Assembly: GCA_020848545.1 (NCBI GenBank)
Contig: JADLHZ010000085.1
Coordinates: 1-64,000, forward strand
Reading direction: 5' to 3'
DNA from: Deltaproteobacteria bacterium
GTDB taxonomy: Bacteria; Myxococcota; JADLHZ01
Length of the DNA stretch: 64,000 nt
This document shows, piece after piece, positions 8,680 through 18,901 of the stretch (position 1 is the first letter of the stretch; each line of letters opens with the position of its first letter). A program made the translations under genes and the position numbers. Under the pieces are notes generated by a model. That model was not told the DNA's origin. It searched no databases and worked only from the letters and a program-made list of their open reading frames with translations.

Positions 8680-9582
<903 letters not shown>

Positions 9583-9676: not shown

Positions 9677-11710
9677 GTGCGCGAACGGCAGTTCTCACTT
9701 CGGCTCAAATTGACGCTCAGCTTCGGCGCCATGCTCGCGGCGCTGGCGATCTTCGTCTCATGGTTCTTCCCGGCACGCATGGCCGAGATGGCGGCGCGGC
9801 TCGAACGCACGCGCGCGACGAGCGTCGCCTCCGCGCTGGAAAAAGCGGCCGCGAGCGCGCTCGGCTTCAACGACGAGCTCGCGGTCAACGAGCTGCTCCT
9901 CGGCGTGTCGAAAGATCCCGACGCCCGCTTCGCGCAAGTGCTCCGGGTCGACGGCACGACGCTCGCGGCGTGGAACGTCGACAAGACGCGCAAGCTGCCG
10001 CCGCTGAAGGGCGAGATGCAGCAGTGGATCGACGGAGACACGCTCGTCGTGGCGACGCCGATCAACTCCGTGCTCGGCAGCCGCGGCCACTTGATCTTGG
10101 GCATGTCGCGGCAGGCGTTGCGCGATGAGCTGCGCGCGATCCGCGAGACGGCGCTATGGGCTTCGTTGATCATCCTCGCCCTCGGCGCCGTGCTCAGCTG
10201 GGCGCTCGGCAGCTGGCTCGTGCGCCCGACGCTGGTGTTGACGGCGCTCACCGCCAAAGTCCTGCGCGACAACGATCTGCGCGTCGAGATCCCGACCTTG
10301 TCACGCGACGAGATCGGCGCGCTCGGCGGCGCGTTCAAAGAGCTGCTCGCGGCCCAACGTGGCACGCTCGCCAGCCTGCAATACTCGCTCGACGAGCACG
10401 AGCAGCTCGGCCTGACGCTCGGCCGCGTGGCGGCGCGGGTGCAGCAGAACACCGACACCATCGATCGACAGGTCACACTCTCGCTCTCGGTCAGCAGCAA
10501 GATGCTCAGCGAGATCGAAGACGTCGCCGGCGAGATCAGGAAGCTCACGAACGAGGTGACGAGCACCACCGATTCGGCGGCGCAGATGACGCGCCTGCTC
10601 GAAGGCGTGGCGCAGAAGCTGCACACCCTCGGCAACGACGTCCAGCGCTCGTCGAAGGAGCTCGACGACATGGTGATGACGATCGAGCAGACGGCGCGCG
10701 CGATCGGCGAAGTCGACGCGGCGCTGCGCGAGAGCACGATCGCGATGCACGACATGGAAGCGTCGCAGGACCGCGTGCGGGCAGCCGTCGGCGACGCCCA
10801 GCGCGCTTCGAACGCGGTCAACGTCCACGCCGAAGCCGGCGTCGCCTCGATCGAGAAGACCGTCGCGAGCCTCACCGACATCCATGGCACCGCCGGCGAC
10901 GCGGCCGCGGCGATCGCGGCGCTGAACGGTCGCGTCGAAGAGGTGGGCGAGTTCCTCTCGGTGATCGAAGACGTCGCCGACCGCACGAACTTGCTCTCCC
11001 TGAACGCGTCGATCATTGCCGCGCAAGCCGGCGAGCATGGGCGCGCGTTCAGCGTGGTCGCCGATGAGATCAACGACCTCGCCACGCGCAGCCGCGAGTA
11101 CACCCAGCAGATCGCGGCGACGATCGGCGCGATCAGGAACGAGAGCAAGCGTGCAGCAGAAGCGACGGCGCGCAGCCAGACCCGCGTCGAGCTCGGCGTA
11201 GAGCGCGGCCAGGAGGCGGCGGAAGTATTCGCGCGCATCCGCAGCGGCACGAACGACGCGCTCGCGGCGAGCGGCCGCATCGGCAAAGAGTCCGAGGAGC
11301 AGCTCGGTCAAGCGCGCACCTTGAAGCGGCTGCTCGATCAGCTGAGCAACACCTTCGAGGCGCTGCGCACCGCCGGGCAGCAGCAGTCGAGCGGCGCCGG
11401 CATCATCGCCAACGGCGCCAAGCAAATGCTCGCGCTGACCTCGCAAGCGCTCGCCGCGGCAGAGGGCCAGAACGAGGCGATCCGCACGATCGAGCGCGGC
11501 GTCGCCAAGGTCAGCGAGGTCACGGGCACGCTCAAGACCGCGCAAGACGCGCAGCGCGAGCAAGGCAAGAACGTGCGCAGCGCCATCGACGCGATCTCGT
11601 CTGCGGCAGCGAGCCAGCGCGAAGCGATCCGCTCCCTCGAGCAGAGCATGAACGCGCTCGCCGCGCAGACCGCGACGCTGCGCGAAGGCATGCAACGCTT
11701 CATGTATTGA
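9677..11710 (+). CDS. Methyl-accepting chemotaxis protein-like sensor
   Basis: This 677-residue protein has an N-terminal membrane segment (about 14-30), a periplasmic domain of roughly 130 residues, a second membrane segment (about 155-180), a HAMP region (about 180-235) and a long coiled-coil signalling domain. The chemoreceptor hairpin is clear around residues 425-460, with DVADRTNLLSLNASIIAAQA and EHGRAFSVVADEINDLA. No C-terminal CheR pentapeptide is evident. The start is GTG with weak upstream signals. It ends 1 base before the convergent TonB-dependent receptor. I infer it is the transducer of a sensory module with the next two genes. Confidence 0.9.
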   Translation: MRERQFSLRLKLTLSFGAMLAALAIFVSWFFPARMAEMAARLERTRATSVASALEKAAASALGFNDELAVNELLLGVSKDPDARFAQVLRVDGTTLAAWNVDKTRKLPPLKGEMQQWIDGDTLVVATPINSVLGSRGHLILGMSRQALRDELRAIRETALWASLIILALGAVLSWALGSWLVRPTLVLTALTAKVLRDNDLRVEIPTLSRDEIGALGGAFKELLAAQRGTLASLQYSLDEHEQLGLTLGRVAARVQQNTDTIDRQVTLSLSVSSKMLSEIEDVAGEIRKLTNEVTSTTDSAAQMTRLLEGVAQKLHTLGNDVQRSSKELDDMVMTIEQTARAIGEVDAALRESTIAMHDMEASQDRVRAAVGDAQRASNAVNVHAEAGVASIEKTVASLTDIHGTAGDAAAAIAALNGRVEEVGEFLSVIEDVADRTNLLSLNASIIAAQAGEHGRAFSVVADEINDLATRSREYTQQIAATIGAIRNESKRAAEATARSQTRVELGVERGQEAAEVFARIRSGTNDALAASGRIGKESEEQLGQARTLKRLLDQLSNTFEALRTAGQQQSSGAGIIANGAKQMLALTSQALAAAEGQNEAIRTIERGVAKVSEVTGTLKTAQDAQREQGKNVRSAIDAISSAAASQREAIRSLEQSMNALAAQTATLREGMQRFMY

Positions 11711-11711
11711 G

Positions 11712-13733
11712 TCAGCGTGCGCCGGACGTGCTGAACGACAAGCGCACATAGAATTCGCGCGACTGCATCGGCAGCGGTCCATGCCCCCCGTTGTAAGGCT
11801 GCGGCACGACGTACTGCGTGCCGATGATGTTGTTGCAGCCAACGCCGAGGTGCAGGCCGCGCACGCCGAGGTCGTGATACCAGAGGCTCGCGTTCAGCAG
11901 CAGCTGCGGCGGCAGCACGCCGGGCACCGGGTTGCCGTCCTCGTCGCCGGAGAGCATGCCGCCGCGCTCGCTGAAGAACACGCCGGCGAGCCCGAGCACG
12001 AGGTGGTCCTTCCAGAGATTGAAGTTGCTGTTCAGCGTCACTTTGTGCGCCGGAAACGCCAGCAAGATGTCGCTGCGCCCGGCCACGCGATAGAGCTCGA
12101 CGTCGTTCTGCCCGCGCGAGGAATAAAACGAGTAGCTCACGCGGACGGCGCCCCAGAAATACCGCAAGCGATAGTCGACCTCGACGCCGGCGCTCCCCGT
12201 GTACGTCGAGTTGAAGTAGCTCTCGGCCTCGGTCACCGGCTCCACGTCGTAGATGATCGGCCGATCGATGCGGCCCCAGAACGCGTTCGCGGTGAGCTGC
12301 ATGTTCGGCGTGATCTTCACGCCAACCTCGGCCTCGAGCACGTTCACGCGCTCCGGCTTGATCGTCGGGTTGATGTTCAGGTTCTCGATCGCCGGCGCGC
12401 GAAACGCCTGGCTGAACAGCAGCTTGAAGTTGAAGCGATCGACGACCTTGGTCAGCGCGACGCGCGGCACGAACGAAGCGCCAAAGCGTGAGTGATACTC
12501 GAAGCGCGCACCGGCCGTGACGTTGACGATGAAGTTCGTGAACACGAGCTGCGCGAAGGCGGCGAAGTTGCCGTAGCTCACCTGCGGCTCACCCTCAAAG
12601 TCGGTCTGAAAGCCGTTGAGCGTCAGGCTGTTCAGGCGCGCGTGGTCGAAGCGACCTTCGGCGCCGAAGAGAAAGTCCAAAGGATCGATCGGCTTCCATC
12701 CGAGCGTGGCGCCGGCGACCAAGCGATAGGCGGTCTTGTCGAAGAAGACGTCGCTCGTCTCGTCCTCGACACGCCACGGCTGCTGCAGCTTGAAGTCGAT
12801 GCGCGGCGTGAGCGTGAGGCGCGGCGTCAGGTCGAATTCTCGGCGCACGCTGAGCACGAACGAACGAAAGCCTTCATCGTAGGCCGCCGGCAGCGCGTCG
12901 ATGGCGCCGTCGCGCGTGCCGATGTGGTAATCGTCGTAGATGATCCGGACGCGCAACTTCTTCCACTCCGCGCCGACATTGAGCAGCATCGAAGTGAGCC
13001 CGCTGTTTTGCGCCATCGGGTAGCTGACGCCGAAGTGGTCCGTGTAGACGCCGTCGCTGCGCGGACCGCCGCCGAAGAACGCGTGGGCCGACACGTTGTA
13101 GTCGTCTTCCTTCGAGCGCATGCCGTACGCGAGACCGCCGCCGAGGTTGCCGACCGAGCGCGAGTACATGGAGCCGGCCACGTTGCCAGCGACACCGGAG
13201 AGCGCCTCACCGTCGCGGGTGATCATGTTGATCACGGCGAGCTCGGCGTAGCCGCCATAGACCGCGGAGCCAGGGCCGCGGATGATCTCGACGCGCTCGA
13301 TCTCGTCGAGGGGATAGTGCGAGCCGAGCTCCGTCGTCGCGTAGAGGACTTCGTTCATCTCGACGCCGTCGAGCAGCAGCAGAATCTTGCCTTCGTGACC
13401 CCAGAGCCCGCGAAAGCCGAGGCCGACGACGCCTTCGACGTCGACGCCCACGCCGAAGCCCGGCACGAGCTGCAAGAGATCGAGCAAGTAGCGCGCGCCA
13501 GAGTGCGCGATCTCTTCGCGCGTGATCACCGTGAGCACGCCCGGCGTGTCGGTCACCTTCAGCGCCGTCTGCGTCGCCACTTCGACGGTCGGGTTCAAGA
13601 GGTCGTCGAGCGAGAGCTGCTCGATGTCGGTGATCGCGGGGGCCACGTCGCTCGCGGGTTGACTTGCGGGTTCCGTAACGGCGAGTCCCGCCATGAGCAC
13701 AATCAGAGGGAACATGCTGGCGATGTATCCCAT
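11712..13733 (-). CDS. TonB-dependent outer-membrane receptor
   Basis: This 673-residue protein has an N-terminal signal peptide (MFPLIVLMAGLAV), then a plug domain containing VLTVITREEIAHSGARYLLD, LLLLDGVEMNEVL and the hallmark IERVEIIRGPGSAVYGGYAE. A long beta-barrel rich in aromatic strands follows. It would sit in the outer membrane and import or sense a ligand using TonB energy; the ligand is unknown. An alternative ATG at 13715 gives a cleaner signal peptide. Its start faces the YfiR-like gene 43 bases away, so both may share regulation. No TonB, ExbB or ExbD gene is in the window. Confidence 0.92.
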   Translation of the reverse strand: MGYIASMFPLIVLMAGLAVTEPASQPASDVAPAITDIEQLSLDDLLNPTVEVATQTALKVTDTPGVLTVITREEIAHSGARYLLDLLQLVPGFGVGVDVEGVVGLGFRGLWGHEGKILLLLDGVEMNEVLYATTELGSHYPLDEIERVEIIRGPGSAVYGGYAELAVINMITRDGEALSGVAGNVAGSMYSRSVGNLGGGLAYGMRSKEDDYNVSAHAFFGGGPRSDGVYTDHFGVSYPMAQNSGLTSMLLNVGAEWKKLRVRIIYDDYHIGTRDGAIDALPAAYDEGFRSFVLSVRREFDLTPRLTLTPRIDFKLQQPWRVEDETSDVFFDKTAYRLVAGATLGWKPIDPLDFLFGAEGRFDHARLNSLTLNGFQTDFEGEPQVSYGNFAAFAQLVFTNFIVNVTAGARFEYHSRFGASFVPRVALTKVVDRFNFKLLFSQAFRAPAIENLNINPTIKPERVNVLEAEVGVKITPNMQLTANAFWGRIDRPIIYDVEPVTEAESYFNSTYTGSAGVEVDYRLRYFWGAVRVSYSFYSSRGQNDVELYRVAGRSDILLAFPAHKVTLNSNFNLWKDHLVLGLAGVFFSERGGMLSGDEDGNPVPGVLPPQLLLNASLWYHDLGVRGLHLGVGCNNIIGTQYVVPQPYNGGHGPLPMQSREFYVRLSFSTSGAR

Positions 13734-13776
13734 GAGTTGATAGGCGCACAGTTAATCTCTCGGAGTCGTTTCAGCC

Positions 13777-14310
13777 GTGCATGTTGGAATCCTCATCGCA
13801 ACGCTCCTCACGCACGCCGGTGCGGTGCCGCCGGAGCGCATGGCGCAGTTGCTCGCGCGCAGCGTCGGCTACGACAAGAACCTGAAGGCCCGAGCCGGCG
13901 ACAAGCTCGTCATCGCGATCGTCCACAACCCGACGGACGCCGCCGCGGCCGAGCACGCGACGCAAATGCAAAAGGCGTTCGCCAGCCTGAGCGGCGTGCG
14001 CGTGCAAGGGATCCCGATCGAGGTCGTCGCGTTCGCGTTCGCGAAGACCTTCGCCGCCGACTTGAAGGACAAGCAGGTCGACATCGTCTACGCCTGCCCG
14101 GGCTTCGCCGATCTCGCCGGCATCACGAGCGCCAGCCAGAAGCTGAAGCTGCTGAGCGTGGGATCCGCCGCCGACGTCGAACGCGGGGTCTCGCTCGGCG
14201 CCGGCATGGACGGCGACAAGGTGGTGCTCGTCGTCAACCGCGCTTCAGCGAAGGCGGAGGGCGTCGACTTCGCCGATCAGCTGCTGTCGATCGCCAAGGC
14301 GATCAAGTAG
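13777..14310 (+). CDS. YfiR/DUF4154-like periplasmic protein
   Basis: This 177-residue exported protein starts at GTG with GGAG about 11 bases upstream. After a short N-terminal hydrophobic segment it follows the YfiR/HmsC (DUF4154) pattern: LLARSVGYDKNLKARAGDKLVIAIV, then VVAFAFAKTFAADLKDKQVDIVY and a strand-helix finish with VLVVNRASAKAEGVDF. YfiR proteins sit in the periplasm and repress an inner-membrane partner, classically a diguanylate cyclase. No GGDEF protein is present here; the nearest membrane sensor is the chemoreceptor-like protein at 9677. The family call is by pattern. Confidence 0.72.
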   Translation: MHVGILIATLLTHAGAVPPERMAQLLARSVGYDKNLKARAGDKLVIAIVHNPTDAAAAEHATQMQKAFASLSGVRVQGIPIEVVAFAFAKTFAADLKDKQVDIVYACPGFADLAGITSASQKLKLLSVGSAADVERGVSLGAGMDGDKVVLVVNRASAKAEGVDFADQLLSIAKAIK

Positions 14311-14328: not shown

Positions 14329-15843
14329 TCACAATCCCCTGACGTCCGAGGCCGCCAAGATCTCGTAGTGCAGGAGCACCGTCTTGCGTTCGAGCGGCCC
14401 GAGCTGCACGTCGAAGCGCACGATGCCTTCCGTGTCCGGCGCCGGCACCGGCCCGCTCGAGGTCGTGTCGATCTTGATCTCGACCTGCTCGAGCTCGCTC
14501 ACCGGCACGCGCTCCTCCAACGCGAAGCGCGCCGGCTGATCGTCGAGGTTCGAGACGTAGGCGACAATCTCGCGGCGGATCGTCTGCTTGCCGGTGATCT
14601 TCGCGGTCTCGCGCCGCTCGCCGGAGCCGCGCACGATGCGCAGGCCGTCGTCGCCGCCGAAGCTCAGGTGAAACTTCTCGCCGGGCGCGACGAACGCGAT
14701 CTGCGTGAAGCCGACATTCCCGGACTCACGCAAGAGCTCGACCGGTCCGGCGAGCAAGGGGTGCTTCGCCACGTTGGCTTGCTCGGTGCGTATGAACACC
14801 AGCGGAGACAGCTCGGGTCGCGCGAGCTTCTCCGCCTTGGCGTCCGTCTCGAAGTGAAAGAGCGGCACCCGCTGCATGCGCCCGTTCGAGCGGATCGTCA
14901 CCGGGCGCTCGGCGTCCATCAGCCGCGCCTCGCCGCCGTCGTCGACGCCAGGAACGTCGGCGTCGGCTTGCGCCATGCCAGCACCGGTCGACTGGATCGC
15001 TTGCTCGTGAAACGTGGCCATCACTTGCTTCGTCGCGCGCGGCTGTGCGTGCAGCACGTCGTCCTGCATCACCGGCGGCTCCGCGCGCTGCGTCGATCGC
15101 GCGGTCGAGAAGCGCGCCTCGACGTTCTCCCACTCTTCGCCGGTCGCCTGCCACACCGCGGCGCCGCACTCGAAGCGCACCTTGTCGCCGCGCCAGATCG
15201 CGCGATGGATCGGCCGCCACAGCGCGCTCGGCACCATGTACGCGAGCGTGACGACATGCTCCTTGGCCTCGACGGCGTTCACCGAGACGCGCACTTCGCA
15301 CTCGAGGCCTGCGTTCGGGTTCTTCACGAGCTCGAAGCGGCGGCGCAGCGTCTCGTACTTCGCCGCGATCTGCACGCGCTCGGCTTCCAGGGCGCGCGCC
15401 TCGGCGTCGGCCGCGCGAACGTCGGCGAGGACGTCGGCGATGGCAGAGGTCTGCGCACGATCGAGCCCCGGCAAGAAGGGCAGCTCTCGCTGCAGCGCCT
15501 CGAACGAGAGCTGCGTCGCCTGCTGCAGACGGCCCATGTGCGCGTGCAAGCGTTGGCGGGCGGCTTCGCAGGCGACGTGGGCCTTTTGCAGCCGCTCGCT
15601 CTCTTCGAGCAACGCGCGCGCTTGCTCGGGCGCCTCCGCGTTGCCGATGCGCCAACGCCGGGACGCCCGTGTGTCATCGACGCGCAAGCTGTCCGAGCGC
15701 GCGACGAGGCTGCGATCGTCGAGCGCCGGCGCCAAGCCGTCGAGCACGAGCTCGTGCGCGCCGGCAGCAAGGGTGACCCGAAGCTCGCGCTCGACCTGCG
15801 CGCGATCCTCGAAGAAAGTGACGCGGATGACTCGGCTCTGCAT
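14329..15843 (-). CDS. DUF4139-family protein (first of a tandem pair)
   Basis: This 504-residue protein belongs by pattern to the DUF4140/DUF4139 family (mucoidy inhibitor A-like). Residues 1-60 hold the DUF4140-type strand-rich start RVTFFEDRAQVERELRVTL, followed by a coiled-coil stretch (about 75-175) and the C-terminal DUF4139 region with YMVPSALWRPIHRAIW and REIVAYVSNLDDQPARF. It has no signal peptide. The ATG at 15843 has AGGAG 7 bases upstream; a GTG immediately before it is less likely. It starts 9 bases after the stop of the larger paralogue, so they form an operon. Function in this family is not established. Confidence 0.82.
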   Translation of the reverse strand: MQSRVIRVTFFEDRAQVERELRVTLAAGAHELVLDGLAPALDDRSLVARSDSLRVDDTRASRRWRIGNAEAPEQARALLEESERLQKAHVACEAARQRLHAHMGRLQQATQLSFEALQRELPFLPGLDRAQTSAIADVLADVRAADAEARALEAERVQIAAKYETLRRRFELVKNPNAGLECEVRVSVNAVEAKEHVVTLAYMVPSALWRPIHRAIWRGDKVRFECGAAVWQATGEEWENVEARFSTARSTQRAEPPVMQDDVLHAQPRATKQVMATFHEQAIQSTGAGMAQADADVPGVDDGGEARLMDAERPVTIRSNGRMQRVPLFHFETDAKAEKLARPELSPLVFIRTEQANVAKHPLLAGPVELLRESGNVGFTQIAFVAPGEKFHLSFGGDDGLRIVRGSGERRETAKITGKQTIRREIVAYVSNLDDQPARFALEERVPVSELEQVEIKIDTTSSGPVPAPDTEGIVRFDVQLGPLERKTVLLHYEILAASDVRGL

Positions 15844-15852
15844 CACACTCTC

Positions 15853-18090
15853 CTAGTAGGGCTCGCGCCGGTTGCCGCCCGCGAGCTCGGCCTTGCCGTC
15901 GATCTTGACGCGGTAGGCGAAGCTCAAGGTCTTCTTGTCGCCGGCGTCGAGCGAGAACAGCCAGCGGTGGCCACCGCGGATGATCAGCGTCTCCGGCTGC
16001 GCGAAGTCTTCCCACGCCGGCGCGACATCTTTCGTCTCGATAGCGATCTCTTTCTCGCCCGGGTCGAGCACCGGCACGCGCTCACGCACGTCGACGTCGA
16101 TGCGGGTCTTCAGCCGCGACGCGACCTCGATCTCGATCGCATGATCGAGGCCGCGGCTCCCGCGCAAGAAGCCCTCGCTCTCCTCGTCGAAGCGCACGCG
16201 CCGCGCCACCTTCACGGCCGGCTCGACGCCGAGGCCGATCGTCAGCTCGCCGCCGCTCGGCACCGTACGAACGGCGGTGCCGACCAAGAACTCGTCGTCG
16301 AGATAGACCTCGGCGTCGCCGGCGAGCAGCGGCACCGCCAGCGGGTTCTTCATCGTCGCGATGCGGACGACGTCCGTGCTCTCGCGTGGCACCACGACGT
16401 AAACGTTCTTGATGTCGGCGCGGCGCTTCAAGAGGGCCACGTTGTGGACTTGGCCGTCGGACGGCACGTCAACGACCCCGTCCGAGTCGTAGCGATAGTC
16501 GAACGAGCCGGCGCTCTGCTCGACCGGGATTCCGAGGGAGCGGCGCTCGGCGGCGGCCGCCGTTTGCAGCGCGAGGTCGATCGTCTGCGCCACACGTCCG
16601 GCAAGCGCGGCGTCGAGACCGGCGCGATCTTCGGCGGTGAGCGGCCGCAGCTTGCCGCGATCGCTGCCGCGAAAGCCGACGATCTTGAGCTCGGCGTAGC
16701 GTAATTCCTTGAGCGCGAGCACGACCGCCGCCTCGGCCGGCGCGTCCGCTGGCACTTCGCCGCTCTCTTCCGCAGCGGGCATCGCGAGCATGTCGTCCAT
16801 CGAGGCCGCCGGGCCGCCGGTGAGCGTCGACATCGACTTCTCCATCTCGCGCGCGCGTCCTTTCGGCGCGGGAGCAGGGCGGGCCATCGGCGCCGCGCCC
16901 ACAGACGGCGCTGGCATCGGCGGGCGCGGCGGGCTCTGCGGAGGCATCGCGGCGCCGGGCGGGCGCACCGATCCAGCGCGCGTCATCGTCGCTTCAGGGA
17001 TACCGCCGCCGCCGGGTGCACCGCCGAACATCATCGCTTGCATCGCCGGTGGCGGCGGCGGCGCAGCGGGCGGCGGCGCCGGCTGAACCACCGGCGGCGC
17101 GACGGCCTGCGAGTAGAGCGGCTGCAGCGCCTGGCCCGTCGTCGCCGGCGCTACCGGATCTCGCCCCACCGCCGCGTCGAGCGCATGGAACAAGCGATCG
17201 GTGTCTGCCGGAGGCGCGCGCCACGCTGCCTTCGCCGTGAACGGAAGTTGCCGGCCGATGCGCAGCGACTTGAGCTCGGGCACGTCCTGCGCGCGAAGCA
17301 ACTGCGCCGTCGACAAGGACAGCTTCACCCGCGGCCAGTACTCGCCGGTGCTCTGCGCGATCATCGCGCGCAGCGCCACCTCGGCGCTCTTGCCGTCGCG
17401 CGCGACGCGGACCACGTACGTCGGCGCCCAGCGCGCGCCCGGAACGCGGTATTCCAGAGTCACGCGCGTGCCGGCGGCGATCACACCGTGCGCAGAGAAG
17501 AGCACCCGCTTGCTCACGCGGGCGGCCCGGTTATCGCTCTCGGCCCGCGCGGCGCGGATCGCACGCTCCAGGCGCGCCCGCTCTTCATCGGCCAGCTTGA
17601 TGCGCCGCTCGAGCTCTTGCACCTCGGCGTGCCGGCGCTCGCTCTCTTGCCGCTGCCACGCGAGGGTCTCGCGCCACGCCGTGGTCGCCGCCGGCGGCGG
17701 TCGTTCTCGGCCCTCGGGATACGCGAGCGTCGGATGCAGCTGCGAGAACAGCGCGAGCTCCTGCGCCACGCGATCGCGCTCGGAGCGCAAGCCATCGACG
17801 ACGCGCACCGCTTCGAGCAACTTCTCGCTGTCGCTGTCCACGATCGATTCTCCCGCGGGCGGCAGCACGAGCTCGACGCGAACGTCCGTCGGCAGGATCG
17901 ATCCCGTGCCGCTCTCGAGGCGCACGCGCACGCTGCCATCGTCGAGGACGGGCGGCAGGCCGCAGAGCGAGAGCACGCCGTCGGTCAAAGGCGCTGCCAA
18001 CGCGGCGATGCGTGTGATCACGGCGCCGCTGCGAAAGACCATGACGTGCGTGATGGCGCTCGGAAGATCGGTCGGCGGGGCGTCGCTCAT
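15853..18090 (-). CDS. DUF4139-family protein with proline-rich insert (second of pair)
   Basis: This 745-residue paralogue begins MSDAPPTDLPSAITHVMVFR. Order: DUF4140-type N-terminus, a coiled coil (about 105-195), the DUF4139 first half (LEYRVPGARWAPTYVVRVAR), a long proline/glycine/methionine-rich insert roughly at residues 320-420, then the DUF4139 second half with IKNVYVVVPRESTDVVRIA and VLDPGEKEIAIETKDVAP. The insert separates the two halves and looks disordered. No export signal is evident. Sequence upstream of 18090 in the same frame is not protein-like, so this start is preferred. It faces the beta-barrel-like gene at 18137 across 46 bases. Confidence 0.85.
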   Translation of the reverse strand: MSDAPPTDLPSAITHVMVFRSGAVITRIAALAAPLTDGVLSLCGLPPVLDDGSVRVRLESGTGSILPTDVRVELVLPPAGESIVDSDSEKLLEAVRVVDGLRSERDRVAQELALFSQLHPTLAYPEGRERPPPAATTAWRETLAWQRQESERRHAEVQELERRIKLADEERARLERAIRAARAESDNRAARVSKRVLFSAHGVIAAGTRVTLEYRVPGARWAPTYVVRVARDGKSAEVALRAMIAQSTGEYWPRVKLSLSTAQLLRAQDVPELKSLRIGRQLPFTAKAAWRAPPADTDRLFHALDAAVGRDPVAPATTGQALQPLYSQAVAPPVVQPAPPPAAPPPPPAMQAMMFGGAPGGGGIPEATMTRAGSVRPPGAAMPPQSPPRPPMPAPSVGAAPMARPAPAPKGRAREMEKSMSTLTGGPAASMDDMLAMPAAEESGEVPADAPAEAAVVLALKELRYAELKIVGFRGSDRGKLRPLTAEDRAGLDAALAGRVAQTIDLALQTAAAAERRSLGIPVEQSAGSFDYRYDSDGVVDVPSDGQVHNVALLKRRADIKNVYVVVPRESTDVVRIATMKNPLAVPLLAGDAEVYLDDEFLVGTAVRTVPSGGELTIGLGVEPAVKVARRVRFDEESEGFLRGSRGLDHAIEIEVASRLKTRIDVDVRERVPVLDPGEKEIAIETKDVAPAWEDFAQPETLIIRGGHRWLFSLDAGDKKTLSFAYRVKIDGKAELAGGNRREPY

Positions 18091-18136
18091 GAGGAAGCAA
18101 AAGTGCCGCGCCTCGGCTCGCGCGCAATAATTCCTG

Positions 18137-18901
18137 ATGCTAGAACGACGCAGCATGTTGTGTCGCACGGCGGCCGCGTTCCTCCTCATCGTCACGATCG
18201 CGCCGGCGATCGCGGGGGCGTGCGGCGTGCCCGGCGCCGGCGGTCCGGCGGGCGTGACGTTGTGCAACCTCAAGGACCGTAAGCAGCTCGCCGCCAAGCC
18301 GGATCGCGTCGGGCTGCGCCTGTCCACCGGCTTTGCCCACTCGGACACCGGCATCATCTTCCCGGGCGGCGACACCATCGCGATCGAACGCAGCGCCGCG
18401 AGCGCCTCACTCGAGTACCGCGTGCGCGACGATCTCGTGTTGACGGCGACCGGCGGCGCCGTCGTGCGTGGATCGATCAGCGGCGGCGTCAGCGCGCGCG
18501 TGTTGCCGGGCCCGCTCGTGGCGTTGTCCTTGTCCTGGCGCATCCTCGGCGCGAAGCCGACCGAGCCGCTCGTCCTCTTCGGCACCACGCTGTCGTTCGT
18601 GCACCACCAAACCGAGGTGCTCTTCGGAGCGCGCGAGCCCTACACGGCGTTCGATCTCCGCGTCGGCCTCATCGTCGGAAAGACCTTCTGGGACGTGTTC
18701 ACGCCCTACGCGGCGTTCCGCTTATTCGGCGGCCCGGTGTTTTATCGCCTCGGAGGCCAAGCGCTGATGGGCGGCGACTTGTATCACTTCCAAGTCGGCG
18801 CCGGCTTCTCGATCGCGATCGCGCGGCGCCTCGATCTCTTCTTCGAAGGCGTGCCGCTCGGCGAGCGTGCGCTGAACGCAGGCGTGGGGGTCAGCCTGTG
18901 A
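18137..18901 (+). CDS. Predicted outer-membrane beta-barrel protein
   Basis: This 254-residue protein has a signal peptide (CRTAAAFLLIVTIAPAIAGA) and then alternating hydrophobic and polar strands with many aromatic ends, as in small outer-membrane barrels. The last strands read SIAIARRLDLFFEGVPLGE and LNAGVGVSL. No specific family is recognised. An in-frame ATG at 18155 is an alternative start and sits right at the signal peptide. Its stop overlaps the GTG of the serine hydrolase downstream (GTGA), so the two are translationally coupled. Confidence 0.68.
   Translation: MLERRSMLCRTAAAFLLIVTIAPAIAGACGVPGAGGPAGVTLCNLKDRKQLAAKPDRVGLRLSTGFAHSDTGIIFPGGDTIAIERSAASASLEYRVRDDLVLTATGGAVVRGSISGGVSARVLPGPLVALSLSWRILGAKPTEPLVLFGTTLSFVHHQTEVLFGAREPYTAFDLRVGLIVGKTFWDVFTPYAAFRLFGGPVFYRLGGQALMGGDLYHFQVGAGFSIAIARRLDLFFEGVPLGERALNAGVGVSL

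Follow-up and report, generated by a model that had tools for sequence, protein, structure and literature searches.

A 64-kb stretch of contig JADLHZ010000085.1 from a Deltaproteobacteria bacterium of the phylum Myxococcota (the window) carries, between positions 9677 and 14310, three adjacent genes for a chemoreceptor of the methyl-accepting chemotaxis protein (MCP) type, a TonB-dependent outer-membrane receptor (TBDR) and a YfiR-like periplasmic protein. Our analysis indicates that this locus is likely to be a real, conserved signalling module of the YfiR–CHASE8 kind, with chemosensory output and with the TBDR as its likely input. As an earlier, sequence-only reading of this DNA had proposed, the MCP appears to stand where a diguanylate cyclase normally stands; this is strongly supported, because the MCP carries CHASE8 and HAMP domains and because YfiR genes sit within chemotaxis (che) gene runs in four relatives. 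On balance we favour a reading in which the three genes provide a trans-envelope chemosensory input, where a ligand of the TBDR would act through the YfiR-like protein on the MCP. The coordinates of all three genes were confirmed, and their features are as follows:

9677–11710, + strand: chemoreceptor-type transducer (677 amino acids; transmembrane segment, periplasmic CHASE8, transmembrane segment, HAMP and long MCP signalling hairpin, by Pfam, NCBIfam and a structural model)
9815–10045, + strand: CHASE8 periplasmic sensor domain (residues 47–123), the putative docking site for the YfiR-like protein
10208–10351, + strand: HAMP domain (residues 178–225)
10820–11305, + strand: core of the MCP signalling domain (residues 382–543)
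11027–11050, + strand: hairpin tip AGEHGRAF (residues 451–458)
11712–13733, - strand: TBDR (673 amino acids; plug and barrel, by Pfam)
13734–13776: gap of 43 bases from which the TBDR and YfiR-like genes diverge
13777–14310, + strand: YfiR/DUF4154-like periplasmic protein (177 amino acids; by Pfam and structural model)

The MCP and TBDR genes converge, with 1 base between their ends, and the TBDR and YfiR-like genes diverge out of the 43-base gap, in which no match to a sigma-70-type consensus was found. Since the strands differ, a single-operon reading of the three genes is ruled out. The sequence-only reading had placed an MCP-like transducer, an outer-membrane receptor and a YfiR-like protein side by side with no GGDEF protein nearby. 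Coordinates and Pfam domains bear out the first point, and the second agrees with the lack of any GGDEF-like motif in the open frames of at least 100 codons throughout the window.

In the chemoreceptor, Pfam recognized MCPsignal (PF00015; 103.6 bits against a cut-off of 34.6), CHASE8 (PF17152; 30.2 bits against 27) and HAMP (PF00672; 24.6 bits, 0.4 under the cut-off of 25). Two NCBIfam models aligned over the same N-terminal part below their cut-offs, namely NF053592, for histidine kinases near YfiR-like proteins (residues 19–225; 63.4 bits, cut-off 194), and the DgcN/YfiN model (residues 21–227; 37.8 bits, cut-off 325). Thus, the chemoreceptor carries a predicted YfiN-type input module, CHASE8 plus HAMP, and does not merely occupy the position of YfiN. 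The presence of CHASE8, which the sequence-only reading had missed, is the strongest point for a link to YfiR. The AlphaFold2 model of residues 1–247 (predicted local distance difference test, pLDDT, 90.9) displays a membrane-flanked PAS-type sensor, which VIA-align superimposed onto WalK (4ywz_B; Z 14.9, root-mean-square deviation (rmsd) 2.2, 124 residues aligned) and CitA (1p0z_A; Z 13.1, rmsd 3.0, 115 aligned); no YfiN periplasmic structure was among the entries of the Foldseek/VIA comparison. A single strict match to the methylation-site consensus was found (TAGQQQSSGA at residue 565, approximately 107 residues past the tip). MCP domains in place of the GGDEF domain of YfiN were already described in Malone 2012 (PMC3375315), so that an MCP replacing GGDEF downstream of a YfiN input is not new.

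The product of 13777–14310 matches DUF4154 (PF13689; 29.6 bits against a cut-off of 24.9), has a hydrophobic N-terminus resembling a short signal peptide and contains one cysteine. Its AlphaFold2 model, calculated from an alignment of 28 sequences (A3), has a mean pLDDT of 91.5. Comparison by VIA-align placed YfiR (4zhu_B; Z 15.1, rmsd 2.6, 140 residues aligned), RmSBP from Rhodothermus marinus (6k1x; Z 15.6, rmsd 2.6, 141 aligned), and the two-domain binding proteins 3lkv (Z 16.3, rmsd 4.6, 158 aligned) and 3lft_A (L-Trp-bound; Z 15.9, rmsd 3.7, 158 aligned) close to this model; YfiR, RmSBP and TrpX-type two-domain binding proteins form one top group, the next entries having Z values of about 11. 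The protein is thus predicted to have the YfiR or single-domain solute-binding fold that the sequence-only reading had expected of it, and the A3 profile also retrieves P. aeruginosa YfiR from the PDB by sequence (E 2.5e-17). A PDB sequence search with the subset of MCP-linked YfiR proteins (A5) left RmSBP unmatched at E values up to 1, so that the link between the YfiR-like protein and RmSBP is one of fold only.

The TBDR carries Plug (59.6 bits, cut-off 23.9) and barrel (87.1 bits, cut-off 27) domains; at E values up to 1 Pfam found only these two, and no N-terminal signalling (STN) domain. It is about 40% identical to TBDRs that adjoin YfiR genes of other genomes.

That a YfiR-type protein can work with a chemosensory output is best supported by the che runs of relatives, as predicted from their genes. 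In four genomes (G002, G005, G007 and G145) a single run encodes YfiR, a chemoreceptor, CheA and CheB. The run of G002 (L176, 4165–14494) holds, on one strand and in this order, TBDR, YfiR, MCP, CheW, CheA, CheB and CheR, with a few other genes interspersed, and Pfam supports all seven. In G007 (L258, 8071–16774) the order on one strand is MCP, CheA, CheB, CheR and YfiR, with small genes interspersed and all five supported by Pfam, and in G005 (L117, 4486–15452) MCP, CheA, CheB and YfiR share a strand; Pfam supports CheA, CheB and YfiR, and the MCP gives a CHASE8 match below cut-off. The row in G145 (L177) reads YfiR, TBDR, CheW, MCP and CheA; here MCP and CheA are called by Pfam, YfiR stands exactly at the cut-off, CheW is assigned by our own profile and CheB by inspection. 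G002, G005 and G007 represent three genera of one family. G002 and G145 have a TBDR in the stretch concerned, and none was seen in the parts covered of G005 and G007. For G002, G007 and G145 the MCP received no CHASE8 call from Pfam, and the MCPs of these run-bearing relatives have a hairpin type that differs from that of the window. We also observed by eye one or two PilZ-like proteins in the L176, L117 and L258 runs, which would hint at a cyclic di-GMP (c-di-GMP) input to the same pathway.

The association was then surveyed over 179 Myxococcota genomes, the window's own included. Of 101 planned neighbourhoods 99 were covered (two hits on contig C4 of G152 were merged and C460 of G043 was left out), with C25 of G005 covered in part; open reading frames (ORFs) were labelled in frame, and many contigs stop inside a neighbourhood, so that genes can be missed. 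There were 63 CHASE8 matches in 46 genomes and 83 DUF4154 matches in 52 genomes. Both domains occur together in 42 genomes, CHASE8 by itself in 4, DUF4154 by itself in 10 and neither in 123 (Fisher p 1e-26, which is indicative only, the genomes being related), and 44 of the 63 CHASE8 matches have a DUF4154 match no more than 10 kb away. Without the window's ORF there remain 82 DUF4154 ORFs, 53 of them at most 5 kb from a TBDR, while plug-domain counts per genome predict 1.7–4.0 by chance. A CHASE8-like receptor lies within 5 kb of 45 of these ORFs; receptor and TBDR are both found at 34. For seven far relatives (L139, L148, L165, L169, L185, L201 and L238) 'CHASE8-like' means a match to our own, non-specific N-terminal profile together with gene position, and not a Pfam call. 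L116 and the second MCP of L252 were dropped as CHASE8-like, their profile match being in the HAMP part only. The output of the adjacent receptor is a histidine kinase in 32 cases, an MCP in 11 and other or unclear in 2, with no receptor found at the remaining 37. The MCP-type loci are those of G002, G101, G106, G111, G115, G116, G145, G152, G173, G177 and G178, and seven of them (G002, G101, G106, G111, G116, G145 and G177, from four families besides that of the window) have a TBDR as well. As an internal control, a TBDR was seen at only 1 (L089) of 16 CHASE8 loci that lack a YfiR-like gene, which ties the TBDR to YfiR. The gene clustering is not due to chance. Judged from domain predictions, the combination of TBDR, YfiR and CHASE8-type receptor recurs with differing output domains, most often a histidine kinase, and otherwise an MCP or GGDEF; the conserved co-occurrence in relatives that the sequence-only reading had put forward as a check was therefore found.

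A search of genome contigs with a profile built from five sequences of the TBDR subfamily found in the window, 39–40% identical to the window's TBDR, returned 80 loci, of which 27 have a YfiR-like gene nearby, including six of the ten best (L178–L187). In L185 (VGSZ01000002.1, a Deltaproteobacteria metagenome-assembled genome (MAG)), MCP, YfiR and a TBDR of the window's subfamily are encoded in a row on one strand, and the MCP N-terminus is the closest to that of the window in alignment A4 (27%). L201 (JAGLOF010000056.1) holds YfiR, an MCP and two TBDRs, and L238, from a Desulfobacteraceae MAG, an MCP and a TBDR. The hairpin tip could be located in 13 of 20 CHASE8-type MCPs; the C-terminal arm measures 219 residues in the window, L112, L119, L165 and L185, and 128–140 in the other eight. 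In a tree of 87 N-terminal domains, made by a quick method and with weak deep branches, the 20 MCP sequences need 6 output changes as drawn and at least 2 by well-supported branches, so that more than one change to an MCP output is likely to have occurred. The window's MCP falls in a group of 12 that consists of MCPs throughout (support 80) and, more narrowly, in a group of six inside it (support 92).

Within its own genome (7.99 Mb, 163 contigs, completeness score 100%), the module holds both the one DUF4154 and the one CHASE8 match (E up to 0.001); 'sole CHASE8 protein' is valid for Pfam's definition only, since our laxer profile also matches L123 and L126. The genome encodes seven MCPs (eight matches, two of them in the window gene), CheA and CheW, with eight CheW-domain matches in three clusters. 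No che gene is present among the flanking genes scanned with Pfam, and the partner CheA/CheW would be encoded elsewhere. Hairpin arm length is held to decide array partners. The MCPs of the che clusters on contigs C12 and C85 have C-terminal arms of 135 and 154 residues, and contig C32 (L259, 5895–14178) has CheA, two CheW, CheR and CheB in a row, CheR and CheB being assigned by reading, and no MCP match. By elimination, since the C12 and C85 arms are shorter and C32 lacks an MCP, the C32 cluster may serve the long MCPs including that of the window, and is our best candidate, guessed from arm lengths.

In the model that we favour, the YfiR-like protein would dock on the CHASE8 domains of the MCP dimer and set its signalling state, by analogy with YfiR and YfiN. 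Docking would respond to ligand that the TBDR imports into the periplasm, and uptake at the outer membrane would thereby, by way of HAMP and the hairpin, alter the activity of CheA. Several observations weigh against this interpretation. In the window the genes do not make up a single operon, and a TBDR is not obligatory, being absent within 5 kb from four of the 11 MCP-type loci. The window's YfiR-like protein is without the N-terminal motif (approximately NFxKxxxWP) typical of most YfiR-like sequences. CHASE8 is part of a broad PAS-like fold; our N-terminal CHASE8 profile also matches two MCPs of the same genome away from the YfiR locus (L123, in which Pfam calls sCache_4, and L126, in which it calls no sensor domain), and Pfam calls no CHASE8 in the seven far relatives named above. 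Lastly, the chemoreceptor tip reads IIAAQAGE where IEAARAGE is usual, as it does in three other MCPs of the genome. The idea of a dead receptor was dropped because these three share the sequence.

The absence of a TBDR at those four loci also agrees with a different possibility, in which the YfiR-like protein and the MCP form a sensory pair, YfiR binding a periplasmic solute or sensing envelope or redox state, and the TBDR is a mere co-located transporter that brings in the related nutrient and has no part in signalling. In favour of this, too, the window TBDR lacks an N-terminal signalling domain, and P. aeruginosa YfiR senses the periplasmic redox state without any TBDR (PMC3375315, a text from which 'TonB' is absent). 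We nevertheless consider this rather unlikely, given that a TBDR accompanies 53 of 82 YfiR genes where 2–4 are expected, with kinase and MCP outputs alike, and that TBDR, YfiR and receptor genes often abut on one strand in the survey loci.

A second alternative retains the TBDR as signal source and dispenses with the imported ligand: the TBDR would signal to YfiR by its own conformation or by TonB-driven plug movement, and YfiR would be captured or released at the outer membrane as it is by YfiB. Known Pseudomonas YfiR does shuttle between its inner-membrane receptor and the outer-membrane partner YfiB (PMC3375315), and in the window a TBDR takes the place of YfiB, with no OmpA-type gene among the flanking genes scanned. 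The predicted fold of the YfiR-like protein, being that of a solute-binding domain, rather favours a soluble ligand, and the TBDR has no periplasmic signalling extension; this mechanism therefore seems quite improbable to us. That a transporter and a chemoreceptor simply happen to flank a YfiR-like gene is very hard to sustain, since, despite the different strands and the lack of an operon, the MCP carries CHASE8, the set recurs in other families and in the named genomes, and che runs include YfiR.

The trans-envelope chemosensory input that we favour shares parts with several known systems. The closest is YfiBNR, or TpbB–YfiR (P. aeruginosa; DgcN in E. coli), with its YfiR-fold periplasmic protein, its inner-membrane receptor carrying CHASE8 and HAMP, and presumed repression by docking. 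In contrast to that system, the window has an MCP hairpin for GGDEF, a TBDR alongside and no YfiB among the flanking genes, and its YfiR-like protein, which contains a single cysteine, is missing the usual N-terminal motif. The same three-part logic is found in the NCBIfam set formed by the YfiR-like TOL_0243 (NF053591), the TonB receptor TOL_0244 (NF053590) and a histidine kinase (NF053592), whose output differs from the MCP of the window; the window proteins score 19.8, 68.1 and 63.4 bits against these models, all under the cut-offs of 125, 645 and 194. In binding-protein-dependent chemotaxis, such as that of maltose-binding protein with Tar, the MCP is informed by a periplasmic protein of the binding-protein fold. 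The window likewise has a binding-protein fold next to an MCP, and the modelled fold is compatible with docking; here the protein is single-domain, the receptor is of the CHASE8 type and a TonB receptor replaces the ABC transporter. FecA-type TonB-dependent transducers differ from the window TBDR, which has no N-terminal STN domain.

RmSBP (PDB 5z6v, 6k1x) resembles the YfiR-like protein in fold, at 18% identity. In Nam 2023 (PMC10805632), genes for such single-domain binding proteins are reported to lie often near an MCP gene, with function, partner and ligand left open, and 'TonB' and 'DUF4154' are absent from that text. From the structural comparison, RmSBP (5z6v, 6k1x, 8wgl) may itself be a YfiR-type partner of an MCP. 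TonB-dependent receptors have also been tied to alkane chemotaxis: PMC6304351 describes TOL_0244 of Thalassolituus oleivorans and cites OmpS of Alcanivorax dieselolei as linking alkane detection to chemotaxis, and PMC5174103 likewise places OmpS in alkane detection. Unlike the proposed relay, OmpS is described as triggering expression of a chemotaxis response, and YfiR has no occurrence in the text of PMC6304351. We found no report joining TBDR, YfiR and chemoreceptor in the literature searched, in which coverage of subscription journals was thin.

Among the neighbouring genes, a tandem pair on the - strand (14332–15846 and 15856–18108), each with DUF4140 and DUF4139 by Pfam, adjoins the YfiR-like gene. 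Upstream of the MCP gene and divergent to it lies a hexapeptide-repeat transferase (8683–9582, - strand; Pfam Hexapep), which we take to be probably a serine acetyltransferase. Pfam revealed no YfiB-type OmpA/Pal lipoprotein in the flanks (8683–9582 and 14332–18898), the rest of the genome not having been searched.

The usual view of chemoreceptors is that they detect molecules which have already reached the periplasm or cytoplasm. If our interpretation is correct, a receptor that monitors TonB-receptor traffic, with a YfiR-type protein as adaptor, would enable cells to follow nutrients too large or too scarce to enter by diffusion. The YfiR family would then have a concrete role outside c-di-GMP signalling, the single-domain binding proteins that have been reported in the vicinity of MCP genes would have a partner, and the reported connection of a TonB receptor with alkane chemotaxis would have a route open to testing. 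It is possible, and we advance this only tentatively, that a TBDR, a YfiR-family single-domain binding protein and a CHASE8 chemoreceptor form a general surface-to-CheA relay, a TonB-coupled chemosensing present in Myxococcota and other diderms, to which single-domain binding proteins encoded close to MCP genes (RmSBP) and alkane-sensing TonB receptors of the OmpS type may also belong.

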